From: Nostoc sp. NIES-3756 | GTDB lineage: Bacteria > Cyanobacteriota > Cyanobacteriia > Cyanobacteriales > Nostocaceae | Assembly (NCBI RefSeq): GCF_001548375.1 | Contig: NZ_AP017296.1 | Location: forward strand, 124,001-188,000 | DNA: 64,000 bases | Direction: 5' to 3' | Notes under the pieces: model-generated | What the model saw: only the letters and a program-made list of their open reading frames with translations | Database searches by the model: none | Told to the model about the DNA's origin: nothing | Part shown: piece by piece, positions 3,515 through 10,298 of the stretch | Position numbering within the stretch: the first letter of the stretch is position 1 | How the letters are laid out: each line of letters opens with the position of its first letter | Made by a program: the position numbers and the translations under genes

Positions 3515-3597
3515 CTACAACTCATCCCTCACCCACTCCAATCCCGTCCGCAATGCCGCCGCCGCACTGTAGTAAATCTTTTGTTCGCCAAATATGC
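3515..3597 (-). pseudogene. 3' half of a small gene split by the Tn7-like element
   Basis: On the minus strand the frame reads IFGEQKIYYS, then AAAALRTGLEWVRDEL and a stop at 3515-3517. A stop codon lies a few codons upstream inside the transposon end, so no start is available. When 3598-10124 plus one TATGC copy is removed, this frame joins in phase to the reading frame starting at 10298 (through ISRTGG). The joined protein has 83 residues, or 63 from an internal Met. The join restoring an open frame is direct sequence evidence. The product resembles short conserved cyanobacterial proteins of unknown role, which is recollection rather than a search. Confidence 0.8.
3593..3597. repeat. target site duplication TATGC, left copy
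   Basis: Five bases TATGC directly flank the left inverted repeat and are repeated at 10125-10129 beyond the right inverted repeat. Five-bp duplications are the rule for Tn7-like DDE transposition. Confidence 0.85.
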
Positions 3598-3614
3598 TAT
3601 GATTTGAATCATAA
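3598..3614 (+). repeat. left terminal inverted repeat of the Tn7-like element
   Basis: TATGATTTGAATCATAA. It matches the right end (reverse complement of 10108-10124) at 16 of 17 positions. The repeat is itself nearly palindromic (TATGATT-TG-AATCATA), so a transposase could in principle read it in either direction. Confidence 0.88.
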
Positions 3615-3634
3615 AATAAACTTTTAGCTTATGA

Positions 3635-3684
3635 TATGCTTCAAAAAGCATTAACCATTTTATACTTCAAAAATCAGCTTCAAA
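3635..3684. repeat. left subterminal transposase-binding-like repeats
   Basis: Three 11-mers, TATGCTTCAAA (3635-3645), TATACTTCAAA (3661-3671) and TCAGCTTCAAA (3674-3684), share the core of the inverted repeat read in reverse. Similar sites cluster inside the right end. Tn7-like elements carry several TnsB sites per end, so these are the likely equivalents. Their shared absolute orientation with the right-end sites is unusual. Confidence 0.6.
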
Positions 3685-3775
3685 GTAGAAAAACAACTTC
3701 TTTGGCGTAATATCCCATATTCCGCAGGTACGCTTGTAAATACGGGTAGATATAGCGTAGGCTGATGCTAGTGAC

Positions 3776-3889
3776 AAACTAAACGGTTTAGTTTAAATTC
3801 CAGGGAAAATTAAAAATTGTTAACAGGTTTATCCCAAAAGATGTTAACAAGTTTATATTTTAGCGAGTGTAAGCTGTTAACAAGTTTAT
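3776..3889 (+). promoter_or_regulatory. operator region of the element's regulator-like gene
   Basis: A palindrome AAACTAAAC-G-GTTTAGTTT lies at 3776-3794. It is followed by three direct 15-mers: TGTTAACAGGTTTAT at 3818-3832 and TGTTAACAAGTTTAT at 3842-3856 and 3875-3889. The last runs into the ATG at 3888. Such an arrangement suits binding by an autoregulator, most simply the product of the gene it overlaps. The assignment of the binding protein is inference. Confidence 0.6.
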
Positions 3890-4523
3890 GACTGACCCAA
3901 TAGCCAAAGGTGGGCGAGGCCACAAAGCCCCCTACGAAACTACCCACGTCAGGATTGCTGAGGGGATCAAACCTGTTGTAGAAAGGCTTAGTGCCGTTTA
4001 CCGTCAAAAATTTTTTGGCAATACAAACCCAGACAGCAACGGAGCAACTGAACTAATAGAACGAGTGGAAGCTGCGTTATCACCAGTTGTACCGACCGTT
4101 GAGGATTATCAACAAGTTTGCGTGCGCTACTTGGCATCGTTGCAGCTAGAGGAGCAAGCACCTGAATACAAAAAAGCAAAACAGCATATTGAGGCATTTA
4201 TTCAAGAGTTAAAAATGGCGAGATTGTCACTGACTCCATCTTTGAAGAAGATGAATGTTGAAGCATTGCAACTATTGCGTCAAGAATTTAAAAATAATTG
4301 GTTGAGTTTCTTTGAAGCAATCTCAATCGAACCTGGATATTTTCAGACTTTTGAAGAATTATTACAAGCTTTAGAACGAGAAATGGCTGTACCGTATGGG
4401 GATTTAGAATCTCATGAAAAAGATTTTCTTCGTGGTTGGGATGAGGTTTATAGCAAAGCTTGTGCTGAGGCTGACCGACGAAAACACGGGGCAAGTTATA
4501 ACTTCAACTGGTTTGAGCAGTAG
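3888..4523 (+). CDS. putative DNA-binding protein, first gene of the Tn7-like element
   Basis: 211 residues, no recognised catalytic domain. The N-terminus (GGRGHKAPYETTHVRIAEGI then KPVVERLSAVYRQK) has the look of a basic arm plus short strand and two helices. This pattern recurs in cyanobacterial plasmid and mobile-element proteins and suggests a ribbon-helix-helix-like DNA-binding unit. The rest is helical and charged. Three 15-bp direct repeats precede it, one overlapping its start codon, which fits autoregulation. It lacks the zinc-binding and HTH features of TniQ/TnsD. It could regulate tnsAB-tnsC or help choose targets, but neither role is shown. Confidence 0.6.
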   Translation: MTDPIAKGGRGHKAPYETTHVRIAEGIKPVVERLSAVYRQKFFGNTNPDSNGATELIERVEAALSPVVPTVEDYQQVCVRYLASLQLEEQAPEYKKAKQHIEAFIQELKMARLSLTPSLKKMNVEALQLLRQEFKNNWLSFFEAISIEPGYFQTFEELLQALEREMAVPYGDLESHEKDFLRGWDEVYSKACAEADRRKHGASYNFNWFEQ

Positions 4524-4559
4524 TAGGTGTTAAAAACTTTATCATAGAGAAGAACAAAC

Positions 4560-4928
4560 ATGGTAAATCTAGAACTTAATGATGAACAATTAAACATAAT
4601 TTCAAAAGCTTGCGAACTTCTATCTCGAATCTACATGGGACAAATTGAAGAAGTAGCTTTGTTATTTTCTGACTTGCCAGATGAGCAATATCAAGAATTA
4701 GTTGATACCTTAAAATCACTCAAATCTATTATCAAAGTTACATCAAAACAATCAAACTCTGGAATCAGAGATGAAAATATCCCAGAAGTAGCTCGTTACG
4801 CTTACGATATTCATCAAGTAATCCGCCATTATTTAGCTTGGAAACACTTTCCTCAAGGTGGCTCTGCTGTTCATTTTAATTCGCCTAATGCTTACGGAAA
4901 TCTGTCTCTACCAACAATTAGTGAATAA
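4560..4928 (+). CDS. hypothetical protein, cargo of the Tn7-like element
   Basis: 122 residues, acidic and mostly helical (LELNDEQLNIISKACELLSR at the start), no motif I recognise. It follows the regulator-like gene by 36 bp on the same strand, with a purine-rich AGAGAAGAA sequence before its ATG, so the two are probably one operon. The size and helical content would suit a small partner or antitoxin-like protein, but that is speculation. Confidence 0.6.
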   Translation: MVNLELNDEQLNIISKACELLSRIYMGQIEEVALLFSDLPDEQYQELVDTLKSLKSIIKVTSKQSNSGIRDENIPEVARYAYDIHQVIRHYLAWKHFPQGGSAVHFNSPNAYGNLSLPTISE

Positions 4929-5068
4929 TTTTCTAAAAATCAAATTAGTATTAATTTTCGACTGAGTTTAGTTGTTTTCTTCAGTAAACTGTTGCTAAAC
5001 ATGAAAGATATTTTACTAAACTTTAGTAAGTAACATTTTAAATCTGCTTTTCTTTTTAGACGTAATCT

Positions 5069-5485
5069 TCAAATTGGAAAATGCCGTTGTAAAATTGGGT
5101 ATAAAGAAGCAGCAATTGCCTCGAATTTATCACCATCTGGATAGGGGCGAGAAATTTCTTCACCGTCTTCGTTCAACCATTCTTGCTGTATTGGAGTATA
5201 CTCAAGGGATAGAATAGCATTTCTCCACCAGCCAGATAATGCTAGATGTTCACTCCCCCAAAATAGCCGAAAATCAACCTTATTATTTCGATAAAATTCA
5301 TTAACAGGATTAGCATAAGGACGGTTTTTCGGATCAAAAGTTTCGGTAAAATAACCTTGAAAATCAATTACTAAAAGCCCTTTTTCAATTTCTGCTGTCA
5401 ATTTAAAGCGAGAATGTAAATAATGAGCAGATAAGATTTTAGCGGCTGTTAATTCAAATTCTATAGGTAAAGTAGATAAACTCAT
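5069..5485 (-). CDS. hypothetical protein, cargo of the Tn7-like element
   Basis: 138 residues, single domain, rich in aromatic residues (FRLFWGSEHLALSGWWRN) and ending YPILQRHFPI; no recognised family. It is downstream of tnsC on the same strand with a gap of about 90 bp and may be co-transcribed with tnsAB-tnsC. In Tn7-like elements the position after tnsC usually holds a TniQ-family target selector. This protein has no visible Cys/His zinc cluster and is far shorter, so I do not call it TniQ. Confidence 0.6.
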   Translation of the reverse strand: MSLSTLPIEFELTAAKILSAHYLHSRFKLTAEIEKGLLVIDFQGYFTETFDPKNRPYANPVNEFYRNNKVDFRLFWGSEHLALSGWWRNAILSLEYTPIQQEWLNEDGEEISRPYPDGDKFEAIAASLYPILQRHFPI

Positions 5486-5575
5486 TAATTAATAATTTCC
5501 TTGAATAACAATGCGAAGATTATTGAAAAACTGATGCCTTGGATAAAAACTGTTTATTACTGAATTTTTTAATGT

Positions 5576-7054
5576 TCACTCAAGTCCTACAGTATCTCGT
5601 TTGGGTTTGCGTTGCCCAACACGCCCCGAAGACTTTTTAGTGGTTTTAGGCATTTCCTGTTGAGTTGCTTTTTCATCTAGTGTCTTCTCTTCTAATGTGG
5701 GAGTGCCGATAATATTTGTCTTTAGTGGTGCTTCACTAATTGAAGAATCAGCAAGTTTTGTTTTCTTACGAGTTTGTTTTTTCTTGGGTGCTGGCTCTAT
5801 AGAGGTTTCATCTGGTGTTGTTGAAGTCGTTTCATTATCGCTCTCCCTGACAGGCTTTTTACGAGTTCGTTTCGCTGGAGACGATGGTTTGTCAGATTTT
5901 GGGGGCGGTGCAACTATATCATTATTCCCCTTGGATAAATCCACCGCCGCTTTTGGTACAGAGGTCGAACCCATACCTATCTGTAGCAAATGCCACAAAT
6001 GTTCACGGCGACTTTCCATGTAAGAGAGTTTTTGCTCCCCCTCAGTGGTATCCAAAGCCATACGTTCACATTGGGCTAGTGTGAGGGTATGTTCATGCAG
6101 TCGTTCTAAACTCAAAGTATCGTGACCATCATGCAATGCCGCCGCCACAGCCCGGATGAGCCAGTCTTTGAGTACCCCAACACAACCAATGGAACGCTCA
6201 TAAAAATAAAGCCAATGCTGCATTAGCTCTTTGACATCAACATTCATAGGTACTTGCATCAGGAGTGCCAATAATGCGGCTTGAAAATCCTGGCGGTCAA
6301 GTTCATTCTGATACAAATAACGCGGAAAATGGATATCCAGTCCCCGCCGGGATGCTTGACCACTTAAATTGCGGAAATTGAGCAGTTCGTAAGTCCCAAT
6401 CAGAATGTGTAGCACTCCCGTAACATTGGTCATGGACTTAATCCAGTCCAACTGATCTAAAAGCTTACCAGCACTTGCACCAGTCCCAATCTTCATTAAG
6501 TGCTGTGCTTCATCCAAAATCACTGCCCGTACTCCACGTTTGGTCATCGCCTCTTCTAATGCGTGGCGCAGTTCTGGTGAATCATTAAACTGGGCTGTTT
6601 TAGTCCGCCCACGCCCTTTCTTCTCCCAAGTTTGTTCCGCGTCAATATCTATCAGCATCCGCCGCTCATAGAATGGTTCTCCCAAAAGTTTCAGCGCAGT
6701 GCGGTAATAATCTGCCCGATTAAACACCCCACCATCCGGTGGTCGTGTTTCTAACAGCAATAACGGCATTGGGGGCCCAGAGCCGTTACGATAGCTCAAT
6801 GAATTGGAAACACCCGGTAACTGTTCGGCTACATTTTCATTTAACCGTTTAGCAATCTGGCGAATCATCGTTGTCTTACCCACACCGCTTGGCCCATAAA
6901 CCAACACATGAGCAAATCCGGCGGGTTCTCGAATCGCACGCATCAACAGCATATCTACCCGTTCTAACTGGGGATGTAAAACGGCATACTCCTTAAACTG
7001 GTTAAGTTTCGACTGTATTTCGCCGTTAAGATTGTCGGTTAAAAAGTTGTCCAT
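5576..7054 (-). CDS. tnsC: TnsC-like AAA+ transposition regulator
   Basis: 492 residues. AAA+ ATPase of the TnsC/TniB class that links target choice to the transposase. Walker A GPSGVGKT is at 54-61, Walker B AVILDEAQH at 177-185, and a sensor-like segment (LIGTYELLNF) follows near 215. Residues from about 370 to the end form a long Lys/Arg/Ser/Thr/Pro-rich, probably disordered tail with several basic clusters (RTRKKPVR, KKKQTRKKTK, GQRKPKR), which is unusual in length and charge. The start codon overlaps the stop of tnsAB by one base, so the two are translationally coupled. Confidence 0.9.
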   Translation of the reverse strand: MDNFLTDNLNGEIQSKLNQFKEYAVLHPQLERVDMLLMRAIREPAGFAHVLVYGPSGVGKTTMIRQIAKRLNENVAEQLPGVSNSLSYRNGSGPPMPLLLLETRPPDGGVFNRADYYRTALKLLGEPFYERRMLIDIDAEQTWEKKGRGRTKTAQFNDSPELRHALEEAMTKRGVRAVILDEAQHLMKIGTGASAGKLLDQLDWIKSMTNVTGVLHILIGTYELLNFRNLSGQASRRGLDIHFPRYLYQNELDRQDFQAALLALLMQVPMNVDVKELMQHWLYFYERSIGCVGVLKDWLIRAVAAALHDGHDTLSLERLHEHTLTLAQCERMALDTTEGEQKLSYMESRREHLWHLLQIGMGSTSVPKAAVDLSKGNNDIVAPPPKSDKPSSPAKRTRKKPVRESDNETTSTTPDETSIEPAPKKKQTRKKTKLADSSISEAPLKTNIIGTPTLEEKTLDEKATQQEMPKTTKKSSGRVGQRKPKRDTVGLE

Positions 7055-9771
7055 TAACGGTATTCTCCCAGTATCGGCAGTTGTGTGAGATCCAACAGTT
7101 CAACGTTGTTTTGCAGTGCTGGCAATTGTTCCTCATCTTGACTGTGTACTTCCATAGCCGGCTCAAGAATGCTGACTTTTGGGAATTGGGGTACACATAA
7201 GGTATTGGGTGTTACATTCTCTAGTACCCCAACCGCTTCCAAATCCCGTAACCGTTGCATGAGTAAAGTTTCATGTTCTTGCACCGCCGCGATGAAGTCG
7301 GCAAGGCGTTTGGCAGAGATATTTGTACTCACAGCATTACGCTTATCTTGTTGTCTAATTTCTTGGGCAGCTAACAGCACTTCTTTCTCCGTGCGTCCGG
7401 CAAAGGTGCTGTAATACTGGGAGATACATTTGACCCATCTTCCCTCCAGGTACGCATAAGCTACACCCATATCAAAAGGGTCATAGCGCACACTGACTTT
7501 GGTCTTTTCGACAACCGGATTGCGGAAAGCATCGTTCCAGTAATAAAGATAATTGACTTTTATTCCCTGTCCAGGCTGGACTTTAGCGTTGCCTTTGGGT
7601 GTACTAGGGCGTGTTGCCATGAGGAAGTCTTCGTTGTATGCAATGCGGAGGTGTTCCCTCTCCCCTGTAGCAACGATTGCGTCGGTATAAACTTGTAATG
7701 GTGTTTCACCCAAGGAATCATGTATGCTCGTGTCATAAATGGTGTATGCCCACTCACACAGGTAGGTATATAAATCTGCCAATGTCCAAACGGCAAGTTG
7801 TTTGGGGTCAACAAATGAAGTCAATTGGCGCGGTTGTTTACTGGCTTGGGTGTTGCCCAGTAGGTTAAAGATAAATTCTGTATTGGTTGTGCCGAATAAT
7901 CGCTCAACTACTGAGCCAAAACGGGGTTTACCACCGGGACGAGTCTTTTTAATGCAGTGGTAACGTGCTAATAAGGTATCAAAGTAAACGCTATGAAATT
8001 CCTTACCACCATCTACAACTACGGATTGGGGAAAACGACCCTCACGCTGGACACACAACCGTAGTGCCATCATGCAAGACCTGTAAGAAGGTGGGTCAAA
8101 GGTAAGATAAACTGCTAAGATGCGTCGAGAATAGGCATCAATCAGTAAGGTCAGCCAAGGTCGTCCTAAGTTCCGACCAGTCACTTGGGAGCGTAATTCG
8201 ATGTCGAGTTGGGTGTGGTCAAGATGACAGATAGCAAAGGGGCGGTCTCCGTGCCTGGGTGTAGTTTTAGCTAGTTCTAAAACAATCGGTTCGGTTGCGT
8301 ATGCGGCTTTTGCTCCCTGACGTTTTAAAGTCTGCTCATGGATGGGACGCTTTTTTAGCCGAGTATAAAATGTGCGCTGACTCAGTGGTGGGATGTTGGC
8401 AGCACAGCAGGCTCTTGTATAGGCGCGATAAACGGAAGCGGCGGGAGCTTGTCTTGGTGTCTCGAAATGTTCGGTAATAAATTGATCTAATAATAAGCTA
8501 GCATCCGTTGGTGCTTTGGGTTGGCGATTTCCTCTACTAGCAGTGCGCGGCAGCAACCCAACATAACCGCAACCAAAAGTGGCTTCGGCTTCCCGAAACT
8601 GTTTGACCCATCGAGACAAGGTGCTTTGAGGTATGTCCTGATATATGTCTGTGCGGTGCTGGAAATATGCTTGTACTAGATGAAATCTGTGATTGGCTCT
8701 TTGTAGATCCGTAGGCGAGGCGGCAACCATCAATTCACGCACTTTTTCATTGATGGTTGCGTGTGCTTCTGAATTATGAATGTTGATAGTGCCGCTATCA
8801 AATAATGAATGAAAAAATGCTGTGGGCAATTGCATTGGTTGCCCGACTTCGGGTAAAAGTGTGGTTGTCTTCTCGCCCAAGTTAACTAACGTCCAAAGTT
8901 GTGCGTCCCAGACTAATAAGGTATTGGGCAAAAGTGTTGTGGGCGAGGTGATTTTTTGATGATGCCCAGTTGTCCCTATGGCTAAATGTGTATGAGCAGT
9001 ATAAGTTTGTTGGTCTGCCCATAATTGAACTCGCCAATGTTCCACTAAGGGAACTGCATACAAGTCTACGTAGAGTTGCTCTGTGGCAATCATGGCGTAG
9101 ATATCGTTAGCACGTACTCCAGGTATGCTTGCAAGTGTGGCGGCAATGGTTGTTCCTGGGGTGGCTTGAACTGCTGAAGAGATTTGTTCTGTAATGGAGT
9201 GGGGGATATTGGCACTGAACCTAAAGTAATCTTCTAAAAACATTAGGTTCTGGGTGAATACGGGATTTAGTTCGGTATCGGTGCGAACGTGGTATGTGAG
9301 TCCATAAGATGCGGCGTAAGCTTCTCCTGGTGGGCAATGCCAATGACCAGTTTCAGTTTTTTGGTAGCGTGAGGGGTATTTTTGGGCTAGTCGTTTTAAT
9401 TCGGTTTCGGTTTTCCATTCTTCCCATGCTGCACCGGAAGTCCGCAATACGAAGAAGTCTGGGGTATGGTAATGACCTATTTTTCGTCCGTTTTGGTTTT
9501 GGTACTGAATTTTAAATGGCGGTGGTTGGTCGTAGAACTCTAACACAATAGGATCATGTTCCATTTGATAAATCGCCCACAGTTCTACTGTGTGGCTCTC
9601 AAATTGAATGGTTTGACCCATTTTGCGGCTAGGGTAAACTCCACTGACGTTTTTGGCGCGTCCTTGTACTCTGCGAGAAGGTGGCGCAGCGCGAATTGCG
9701 GCGATTAGTAAGAGTGTTTGTGCCGTTAGTTGCTGTTGCTTACACCAATAATCAAATTCGTCGTCTGTCAT
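7054..9771 (-). CDS. tnsAB: TnsA-TnsB fusion transposase (TnsAB)
   Basis: 905 residues. The N-terminal part is a TnsA-type endonuclease with likely catalytic E63 (TVELW), D105 (HTPDFF) and K120 (EEWKTE), which cuts the 5' ends at the donor. The C-terminal part is a TnsB/Mu-type integrase: helix-turn-helix segments, then the DDE core with D518 (HLDHTQLD), D587 (VVVDGGKEFH) and E623 (GSVVERLFG), exactly 35 residues between the last two. A beta-barrel and C-terminal tail follow. Such fusions are known in cyanobacterial Tn7-like elements, including some type I-B CRISPR-associated transposons. All catalytic residues are present, which predicts cut-and-paste transposition. Confidence 0.93.
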   Translation of the reverse strand: MTDDEFDYWCKQQQLTAQTLLLIAAIRAAPPSRRVQGRAKNVSGVYPSRKMGQTIQFESHTVELWAIYQMEHDPIVLEFYDQPPPFKIQYQNQNGRKIGHYHTPDFFVLRTSGAAWEEWKTETELKRLAQKYPSRYQKTETGHWHCPPGEAYAASYGLTYHVRTDTELNPVFTQNLMFLEDYFRFSANIPHSITEQISSAVQATPGTTIAATLASIPGVRANDIYAMIATEQLYVDLYAVPLVEHWRVQLWADQQTYTAHTHLAIGTTGHHQKITSPTTLLPNTLLVWDAQLWTLVNLGEKTTTLLPEVGQPMQLPTAFFHSLFDSGTINIHNSEAHATINEKVRELMVAASPTDLQRANHRFHLVQAYFQHRTDIYQDIPQSTLSRWVKQFREAEATFGCGYVGLLPRTASRGNRQPKAPTDASLLLDQFITEHFETPRQAPAASVYRAYTRACCAANIPPLSQRTFYTRLKKRPIHEQTLKRQGAKAAYATEPIVLELAKTTPRHGDRPFAICHLDHTQLDIELRSQVTGRNLGRPWLTLLIDAYSRRILAVYLTFDPPSYRSCMMALRLCVQREGRFPQSVVVDGGKEFHSVYFDTLLARYHCIKKTRPGGKPRFGSVVERLFGTTNTEFIFNLLGNTQASKQPRQLTSFVDPKQLAVWTLADLYTYLCEWAYTIYDTSIHDSLGETPLQVYTDAIVATGEREHLRIAYNEDFLMATRPSTPKGNAKVQPGQGIKVNYLYYWNDAFRNPVVEKTKVSVRYDPFDMGVAYAYLEGRWVKCISQYYSTFAGRTEKEVLLAAQEIRQQDKRNAVSTNISAKRLADFIAAVQEHETLLMQRLRDLEAVGVLENVTPNTLCVPQFPKVSILEPAMEVHSQDEEQLPALQNNVELLDLTQLPILGEYR

Positions 9772-9885
9772 GAGAGTTTTTTATACAAGAAAAGAGTGTT
9801 TCTCTTATCAGGAGACAGTTTTAGGCTTTCAGTACGCAAGACAAAACTACGGAGTCATGGTTTTAAGTGAAGCATATCTTGGAAT

Positions 9886-10119
9886 TTTGAACCATATTTT
9901 GAATTGAAAGTTTAAGTTAGAGCAATTTTTTCCGAGATTTTTTGTTCAAGTTTCATTCAATTGTATTTTTTTAACTCATTTTTTAATTATGCTTCAAAAT
10001 TTCAACTCTATCTCATGATTTGATTCAAAGTTTTATTTTGTGATTGGTGAGAAAGCTTGAAATTGCGTTAACTCTTTCTCAATTTATGGTTCAAAATTTT
10101 TCTCATATTATGATTCAAA
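9886..10119. repeat. right-end transposase-binding-like repeats
   Basis: Between the tnsAB start and the right terminus lie TATGCTTCAAA (9988-9998), TTTGATTCAAA (10019-10029), TATGGTTCAAA (10085-10095) and TATGATTCAAA (10109-10119, within the terminal repeat). One inverted copy, TTTGAACCATA, is at 9886-9896. They share a core with the terminal repeat and the left subterminal sites. The 350 bp here hold no gene and are AT-rich, as expected for a transposon end that also carries the tnsAB promoter. Confidence 0.65.
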
Positions 10120-10124
10120 GCATA
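10108..10124 (-). repeat. right terminal inverted repeat of the Tn7-like element
   Basis: TTATGATTCAAAGCATA on the plus strand; its reverse complement TATGCTTTGAATCATAA matches the left terminal repeat at 16 of 17 positions. It is immediately followed by the TATGC target duplication. Confidence 0.88.
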
Positions 10125-10129
10125 TATGC
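10125..10129. repeat. target site duplication TATGC, right copy
   Basis: Matches the five bases at 3593-3597 left of the element. Confidence 0.85.
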
Positions 10130-10298
10130 CTCCAGTGCGGCTGATGATGCGGAACTGCCAGCACTGTCCAGGTGTGTAATAAACAATTAGGACACTACAG
10201 TTGATGCAGACAACAGTATCAACCTTGATATTAGACATGATTTGGTATGAGATTTGAGGTACTAGCAATTGTGCATCATGTTTGAAAAACTGGCTCAC
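10125..10298 (-). pseudogene. 5' half of the small gene split by the Tn7-like element
   Basis: Frame starts at GTG 10298 (or ATG 10238, MSNIKVDTVVCIN) and runs through VLIVYYTPGQCWQFRIISRT to the target duplication, after which it enters the transposon end. The matching 3' half is at 3515-3597. The GTG overlaps the stop of the glycosyltransferase gene, so the intact gene was probably the last member of that operon. A chimeric product reading into the transposon until 10068 is possible. Confidence 0.75.

Follow-up and report, generated by a model that had tools for sequence, protein, structure and literature searches.

A TniQ-less branch of cyanobacterial Tn7-like transposons in which TnsC perhaps selects target DNA

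The 64,000-nucleotide stretch of Nostoc sp. NIES-3756 analyzed here (contig NZ_AP017296.1, positions 124,001 to 188,000; the window) carries a complete Tn7-like transposon at 3598-10124, 6,527 bp long, which encodes a TnsA-TnsB fusion and TnsC and in which we found no TniQ. It is the only copy in this 6.99-Mb genome and lies on a 447,304-bp contig, the chromosome being 6.46 Mb. An earlier note on this DNA had delimited the element at exactly these positions, and the borders hold. The target-site duplication TATGC stands at 3593..3597 and again at 10125..10129, and the 17-bp inverted ends, TATGATTTGAATCATAA distal to tnsAB (3598..3614, plus strand) and TATGCTTTGAATCATAA adjoining it (10108..10124, minus strand, read 10124-10108), are identical at 16/17 positions. 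The insertion splits a small open reading frame (ORF) on the minus strand, with its 5' part at 10130..10298 and its 3' part at 3515-3597. Uninterrupted homologues of this ORF are found at locus L149 (genome G207; 87% identity, open across the joint) and at L150 (G211; 81% identity, with a stop codon); the alignments of the two flanks overlap by exactly the five duplicated bases against L150 and by three against L149. TnsB-type repeats are predicted at both ends, two more at the distal end (3634-3645 and 3660-3671, minus strand, one mismatch each) and five on the tnsAB side with 0 to 2 mismatches (9886-9897 on the plus strand; 9987-9998, 10018-10029, 10084-10095 and 10108-10119 on the minus strand). 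All four exact matches to the repeat, TTTGAANCATAA, in the window lie at the element ends, and at up to two mismatches the window as a whole shows no enrichment (34 observed vs 53 expected from shuffles). Such repeated putative TnsB sites together with a 5-bp duplication are the end structure of a Tn7-like element. No homologue was seen whose ends lie outside these borders, and the delimited relatives end at the equivalent place.

Two genes on the minus strand would provide the transposition machinery: tnsAB (7054..9771), a 905-amino-acid (aa) fusion of endonuclease and DDE transposase that overlaps the start of tnsC, and tnsC (5576..7054), a 492-aa AAA+ ATPase whose residues 362-492 form a long tail with the Lys/Arg patches typical of the clade described below. 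The TnsAB residues E63, D105 and K120 and D518, D587 and E623, which we take to be catalytic from the TnsA and TnsB motifs, are present as the earlier note had said. Compared with Pfam, the five encoded proteins show TnsA, rve, Mu-transpos_C, TniB and AAA domains and match neither TniQ nor a Cas family, and neither TnsD nor TnsE was found in the element, again in agreement with that note. The element thus has a TnsB-type DDE transposase with Mu-transpos_C, an adjoining gene for a TnsC AAA+ ATPase, and a TnsA endonuclease whose activity in cut-and-paste transposition is predicted from its domain and from E63/D105/K120; of the usual Tn7-like components the TniQ/TnsD target selector is missing, and TnsAB still falls among the Tn7-like TnsABs by descent. 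Nothing was found within its borders that would make it a CRISPR-associated transposon (CAST), neither a Cas effector nor a CRISPR array, and a 4.75-kb relative has 348 and 216 bp outside its two genes. Nor did we find the single TniQ that accompanies TnsAB and TnsC in elements of the Tn5469 type. We considered a guide RNA and set it aside, since Rfam gave no match at gathering score in the window or in the related locus L098. Judged from its sequence, the element belongs to a TniQ-less, presumably cut-and-paste, branch of the TnsAB-type Tn7-like elements, related to Tn5469 and to the type I-B2 and I-D CASTs.

Absence of an encoded TniQ departs from the published way in which Tn7-like elements choose targets, as the earlier note had argued. 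The passages cited of PMC11406308 present TniQ as near-universal among Tn7-like elements and treat the contact between TniQ and TnsC as a conserved step in recruiting the transposon; the part cited of PMC10293859 calls TniQ ubiquitous in the Tn7 branch, and the counts taken from PMC8649781 give, clade by clade, 73-97% of transposons with tnsD/tniQ, which means that some transposons without them have already been counted. The TniQ-lacking CASTs mentioned in the part cited of PMC12669027 are Mu-like or telomeric transposons. No TniQ-less TnsAB-TnsC clade is described in the literature searched, outside which the cyanobacterial survey of Hsieh and Peters (2023) lies, and this survey may mention such elements.

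TniQ-less TnsAB elements, for which the note had called for a search, form one clade of 35 rows. In a TnsAB tree built by a quick method from 64 rows, of which 62 are distinct, and rooted at its midpoint, a single branch with a Shimodaira-Hasegawa-like approximate likelihood-ratio support (SH-aLRT) of 100 and a length of 0.82 parts these 35 from 29 TniQ-bearing rows, so that one change explains the trait. Members of the clade occur in Nostocales, Chamaesiphon, Xenococcaceae, Pleurocapsales and Prochloraceae, and Gloeothece elements with broken genes are similar. Rows L059/L116 and L025/L161 are duplicates, and nine rows stand on short contigs beyond which a TniQ might lie (L018, L019, L025, L027, L114, L117, L120, L123, L161). 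Left outside the tree were Gloeothece L213/L214, the decayed L058, and L215 and L216; these last two, decayed and outside the clade, have a broken tnsC and no TniQ by our custom profile. That the window element is merely a degenerate single copy that lost TniQ is rejected by the tree and by the identical copies of its relatives described below. As separate observations, L108 (G026) has a clade tnsAB within a 1,317-aa open frame, an in-frame fusion to upstream sequence, and L058, from the Ktedonobacteria bacterium brp13 of another phylum, has a decayed TnsAB, a segment of which shows about 60% identity with the clade, and no TniQ by the custom profile, a hint of wider spread.

No TniQ was found in any delimited clade element, and across 32 clade genomes no Pfam TniQ match that shares a contig with a clade copy lies less than 9 kb from it. 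The custom TniQ profile recovers TniQ at 29/29 outgroup loci, 17 of which supplied that profile; in the clade it gave weak matches (E 0.017-0.13) in L093, which is not delimited, and in L100 and L106, where they lie outside the delimited elements. It also missed one Pfam TniQ, G041:C4:24919, which is inside the L106 locus and 9 kb outside its element; because of this weakness the absence of TniQ rests mainly on Pfam. Genome-wide, Pfam TniQ occurs in 25/25 comparison genomes (G108 was outside the TniQ search, and the matches in G185 are partial).

These searches bear on the idea, one of three alternatives the earlier note had left, that a TniQ-bearing Tn7-like element or CAST in the same cell lends its TniQ in trans. 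Donors would often be at hand: one or more PF06527 matches at E<=0.01 occur somewhere in 25/32 clade genomes, G014, G119 and G211 among them, the NIES-3756 chromosome itself carries a 42% identical TnsAB relative with TnsC and two TniQ genes, and L106, a clade copy without tnsC, has a TniQ 9 kb away. The copies L106 and L107, two 3.52-kb elements on one 431-kb replicon of G041, have both ends and perfect duplications (ACTTC and GTAAA), yet their tnsAB match stops at residue 769 and no tnsC was found; they are probably non-autonomous derivatives moved in trans, which makes trans action within the family likely. Set against this, TniQ is absent genome-wide by Pfam from 7/32 clade genomes (G006, G008, G059, G090, G101, G121, G148), three of which (G006, G101, G121) hold intact tnsAB and tnsC (L104, L117, L119), and from 6/10 additional genomes or records that contain clade members, the 6.2-Mb genome of L032 being one of the six. 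Two of the six are single Gloeothece plasmid records; G499/G585 resemble one assembly, and G582 resembles G198. The wide diversity of the clade fits lasting independence, and a TnsC motif that might serve TniQ is altered in it, as described below. We therefore disfavor borrowing and regard it as improbable.

Close relatives show that the lineage has been mobile recently, as far as genome sequences can tell. Four plasmids of Nostoc sp. ATCC 53789 each have a copy, and these copies show no difference over 4,749 bp (in one of them 4,748 bp can be seen); a fifth is interrupted by a transposase gene. The copy that was read through is a minimal element of 348 bp, tnsAB, tnsC and 216 bp. Tolypothrix PCC 7712 has four clade copies of 99.9-100% identity on three plasmids, with two inverted copies, L094/L095, on its 192.9-kb plasmid, whose duplications GTGTT and CTTAT are exchanged between the copies, a swap that in sequence has the mark of inversion by recombination between the two. 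With two copies on one plasmid here, we do not claim a strict one-copy-per-plasmid immunity. Trichormus variabilis ATCC 29413 has identical 6,495-bp elements, with three cargo genes included, on its plasmids A and C, and their DNA is 94.7% identical to that of the window element. In its sister strain 0441 (G211, with five Pfam TniQ matches) the plasmid C site is empty, with a single GTCGG and identical flanking sequence of 2,996 bp on one side and 800 bp on the other. The same site is empty in a related plasmid of NIES-2107, at 94-96% identity. A recent insertion in ATCC 29413 would explain this most simply, and it is less likely that the other strains lost the element precisely. L111 (= L012), too, has a perfect ATAAT duplication, with a tnsC that is internally deleted.

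The remaining three genes of the window element encode proteins of 211 aa (3888..4523, plus strand), 122 aa (4560..4928, plus strand) and 138 aa (5069..5485, minus strand), and the earlier note had considered that one of them might be a new target selector. They do lie inside the element and travel on both identical ATCC 29413 copies. However, 4.75-kb relatives without any of the three have multiplied with tnsAB and tnsC only, which contradicts such a role for the lineage, and of the other loci compared, L091 alone gave matches to the 211- and 122-aa proteins, the rest having other small genes or none; the 138-aa protein is common to L091, L109, L112 and L125, with no match in the other loci compared. 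No small protein matched TniQ in Pfam or NCBIfam. Structure models of the 211- and 138-aa proteins are weak (mean predicted local distance difference test scores of 63 and 66), and when the PDB was searched by fold with the low-confidence 211-aa model, nothing matched at E<=0.001, hence not TniQ either, the structural match that would have spoken against the note. We thus give the idea of a selector among these proteins almost no credence, and the three genes are best read as cargo. A protein search gave 39 homologues of the 211-aa protein, mostly from Nostoc where the source is named, of which 20/39 were used in an alignment (A1). Elsewhere on the same replicon, G000:C2:7480-7785 is 68% identical in DNA to the 122-aa cargo gene, and just upstream of the 211-aa gene, at 3812-3889, a repeat resembling TGTTAACAAGTTTAT occurs three times in nearly the same form and is perhaps an operator.

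Where the elements land gives no sign of a preferred sequence. Among 20 delimited insertions no 5-bp duplication occurs twice, base counts around these 20 aligned insertions show no clear motif, and no neighboring gene is common to the eight annotated plasmid sites, and on these grounds a common target gene or motif was set aside. The end search took the duplication as a criterion, and duplications so found are partly there by construction; the borders of multi-copy elements come from alignment. Uncounted were loci with one or both ends but no matching duplication (L092, L104, L115, L119, L121, L124, L125) and those whose left end was not found or whose contig was too short (L014, L074, L108, L114, L117, L120, L123). 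Among the 20, L106, L107, L111, L116 and L118 lack a full tnsC match and L126 a full tnsAB, and L094/L095 carry their duplications swapped.

The kind of replicon, in contrast, is far from even. When every candidate was scored in 8 replicon-resolved genomes, 12/14 intact clade copies were on plasmids, against 16/46 for full-length copies that do not belong to the clade, counted in 23 genomes (Fisher P 0.0015); with at most four candidates scored per genome the clade count is 12/14 likewise and the outside count 12/36 (Fisher P 0.0013). Copies within one genome are not independent in the 12/14 count, from which G013:C4 (second), G014:C3:9727, the two copies of G041 without tnsC, G119:C6 and G207:C3 were left out as broken or partial. 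Random landing would put 1.5 of 14 on plasmids, with P 8.5e-11 if copies were independent, a value based on rounded genome sizes with all non-chromosomal contigs taken as plasmid (about 3-16% of those genomes). Within PCC 7712, 4/4 intact TniQ-less copies are on plasmids, as opposed to a TniQ-bearing 4,904-bp element with 3/4 copies chromosomal and one on a plasmid, and 7/8 plasmids examined are typed conjugative or mobilizable, one being non-mobilizable. Such a pattern might arise if TnsC or TnsAB actively read some plasmid or replication structure, a choice like that of TnsE without TnsE. This we think unlikely, considering that neither a sequence motif nor a common neighbor gene was seen, that six of the 8 genomes are plasmid-only but two (G006 and G193) have their copy only on the chromosome, and that selection against chromosomal insertions explains the same pattern. 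The plasmid enrichment is observed; its cause may be targeting or selection.

By analogy with known Tn7-like systems, TnsAB would bind the end repeats, excise the element and join it with a 5-bp duplication, and TnsC would bind target DNA and recruit TnsAB. The TnsC tail beyond the part matching solved TnsC is 116-201 aa long at 21 clade loci vs 25-49 aa at 17 outgroup loci (L142, with a truncated tnsC frame, was dropped), and deep clade members have long tails as well. Clade tails have 1 to 3 Lys/Arg patches and outgroup tails 0 or 1; the clade patches, for example KRTRKK, KKKQTRKK and KKRQTRKKK, stand ahead of a final VGxRxPKRDxVG-like motif that is common to most rows of both groups. Among 120 of 1,702 TnsC homologues, those listed, tails measured 0-208 aa with a median of 126, fragments included. 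At the other end of the protein, an N-terminal FPxxLL motif, with F and P each in 16/17 outgroup rows, is altered in the clade, where F is kept in 8/21 and P is absent from the residues listed at its position; the original motif may have served TniQ. A bypass of target selection of the Walker-B type, known for Tn7 according to the part cited of PMC11406308, is not supported here, as clade and outgroup alike keep the residues of Walker A and the D181/E182 pair.

We thus propose, as the account we consider reasonably probable, that this TnsAB-TnsC transposon selects DNA in the absence of TniQ, perhaps by means of the TnsC tail. TnsC might load on DNA without a sequence-reading selector, aided by its Lys/Arg-rich tail, and because of such loading insertion would be unguided in sequence; of the three alternatives in the earlier note, unguided transposition is the one best supported. 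A stronger version, in which the lineage has lost TniQ for good and TnsC has become a self-loading, plasmid-directed selector through its repeated Lys/Arg-rich tail, making a two-protein Tn7 that resembles an insertion sequence (IS) across cyanobacterial plasmids, we offer tentatively, as a possibility short of probable. Several points weigh against the proposal. It is built throughout on sequence analysis; 9/17 outgroup tails also bear one basic patch; and the tail and the loss of TniQ are one evolutionary event, so that comparing tails provides no independent support. Most clade genomes (25/32) hold some TniQ elsewhere, and for L104, L117 and L119 in the TniQ-free G006, G101 and G121 no duplication was established, so any transposition there is putative. 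The plasmid enrichment may reflect selection or conjugative arrival, with copies in one genome not independent and two of 8 genomes having a chromosomal copy only, and a host factor might act as target selector.

Comparison with known systems sharpens what is unusual here. The four ~4,904-bp elements of PCC 7712, 99.98-100% identical and with tnsAB, tnsC and tniQ, we take to be Tn5469, which has a length of 4,904 bp and a 5-bp duplication. This 4,904-bp element has a TniQ of 273 aa and a TnsC of 375 aa (492 aa in the window); its TnsAB and TnsC are 44% and 31% identical to those of the window element, whereas with outgroup row L138 its TnsAB shares 74% identity. The best solved relatives by sequence are 9bw1 for TnsAB (residues 4-850, E 1.3e-262) and 8fcu for TnsC (14-361, E 6.3e-74), presumably both entries of the type I-B2 CAST PmcCAST; unlike PmcCAST, the window element has no Cas genes, TniQ or TnsD that we could find, and its TnsC tail after residue 361 is unmatched. 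A transposase and an AAA+ ATPase work without TniQ in the IstA-IstB pair of IS21. MuA-MuB is a further such pair (Mu comparison in the part cited of PMC11406308), and unlike both, the window element is Tn7-like by its TnsA domain, end structure and phylogeny. Tn5469 of Fremyella diplosiphon, the closest named element, has one TniQ, unlike the window element, no cargo, and apparently untargeted transposition only, according to the section cited of PMC11406308. For a type I-D CAST, CyCAST, the part cited of PMC10293859 reports that RNA-guided transposition continues at a low level when TniQ and TnsD are absent; that activity is residual and Cascade-guided, and no Cascade gene was found in the window element. 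A natural clade moving without an encoded TniQ makes testable what TnsC does alone, and it bears on off-target insertion by CASTs and on plasmid preference without TnsE, TniQ or CRISPR; the 4.75-kb two-gene element is a small model and a possible insertion tool.

Lastly, the earlier note had seen in the TATG ends a departure from the usual TGT, a view that did not survive comparison with relatives. At the same position close relatives mostly have TGT, for example TGTGATTTGAATCATAA, and the window copy has TAT at both ends, so by sequence its TAT/TATG ends appear as TGT ends with a G-to-A change at position 2, and a separate TATG end class was rejected. In the 20 delimited insertions the end distal to tnsAB is TGT in 19 and TAT in the window copy alone; the tnsAB-side end is TGT in 13/20 and TAT in seven (the window, L105, L106, L107, L110, L111 and L116), each with a different duplication. 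As L106 and L107 are two copies within one genome, the TAT end is probably usable.

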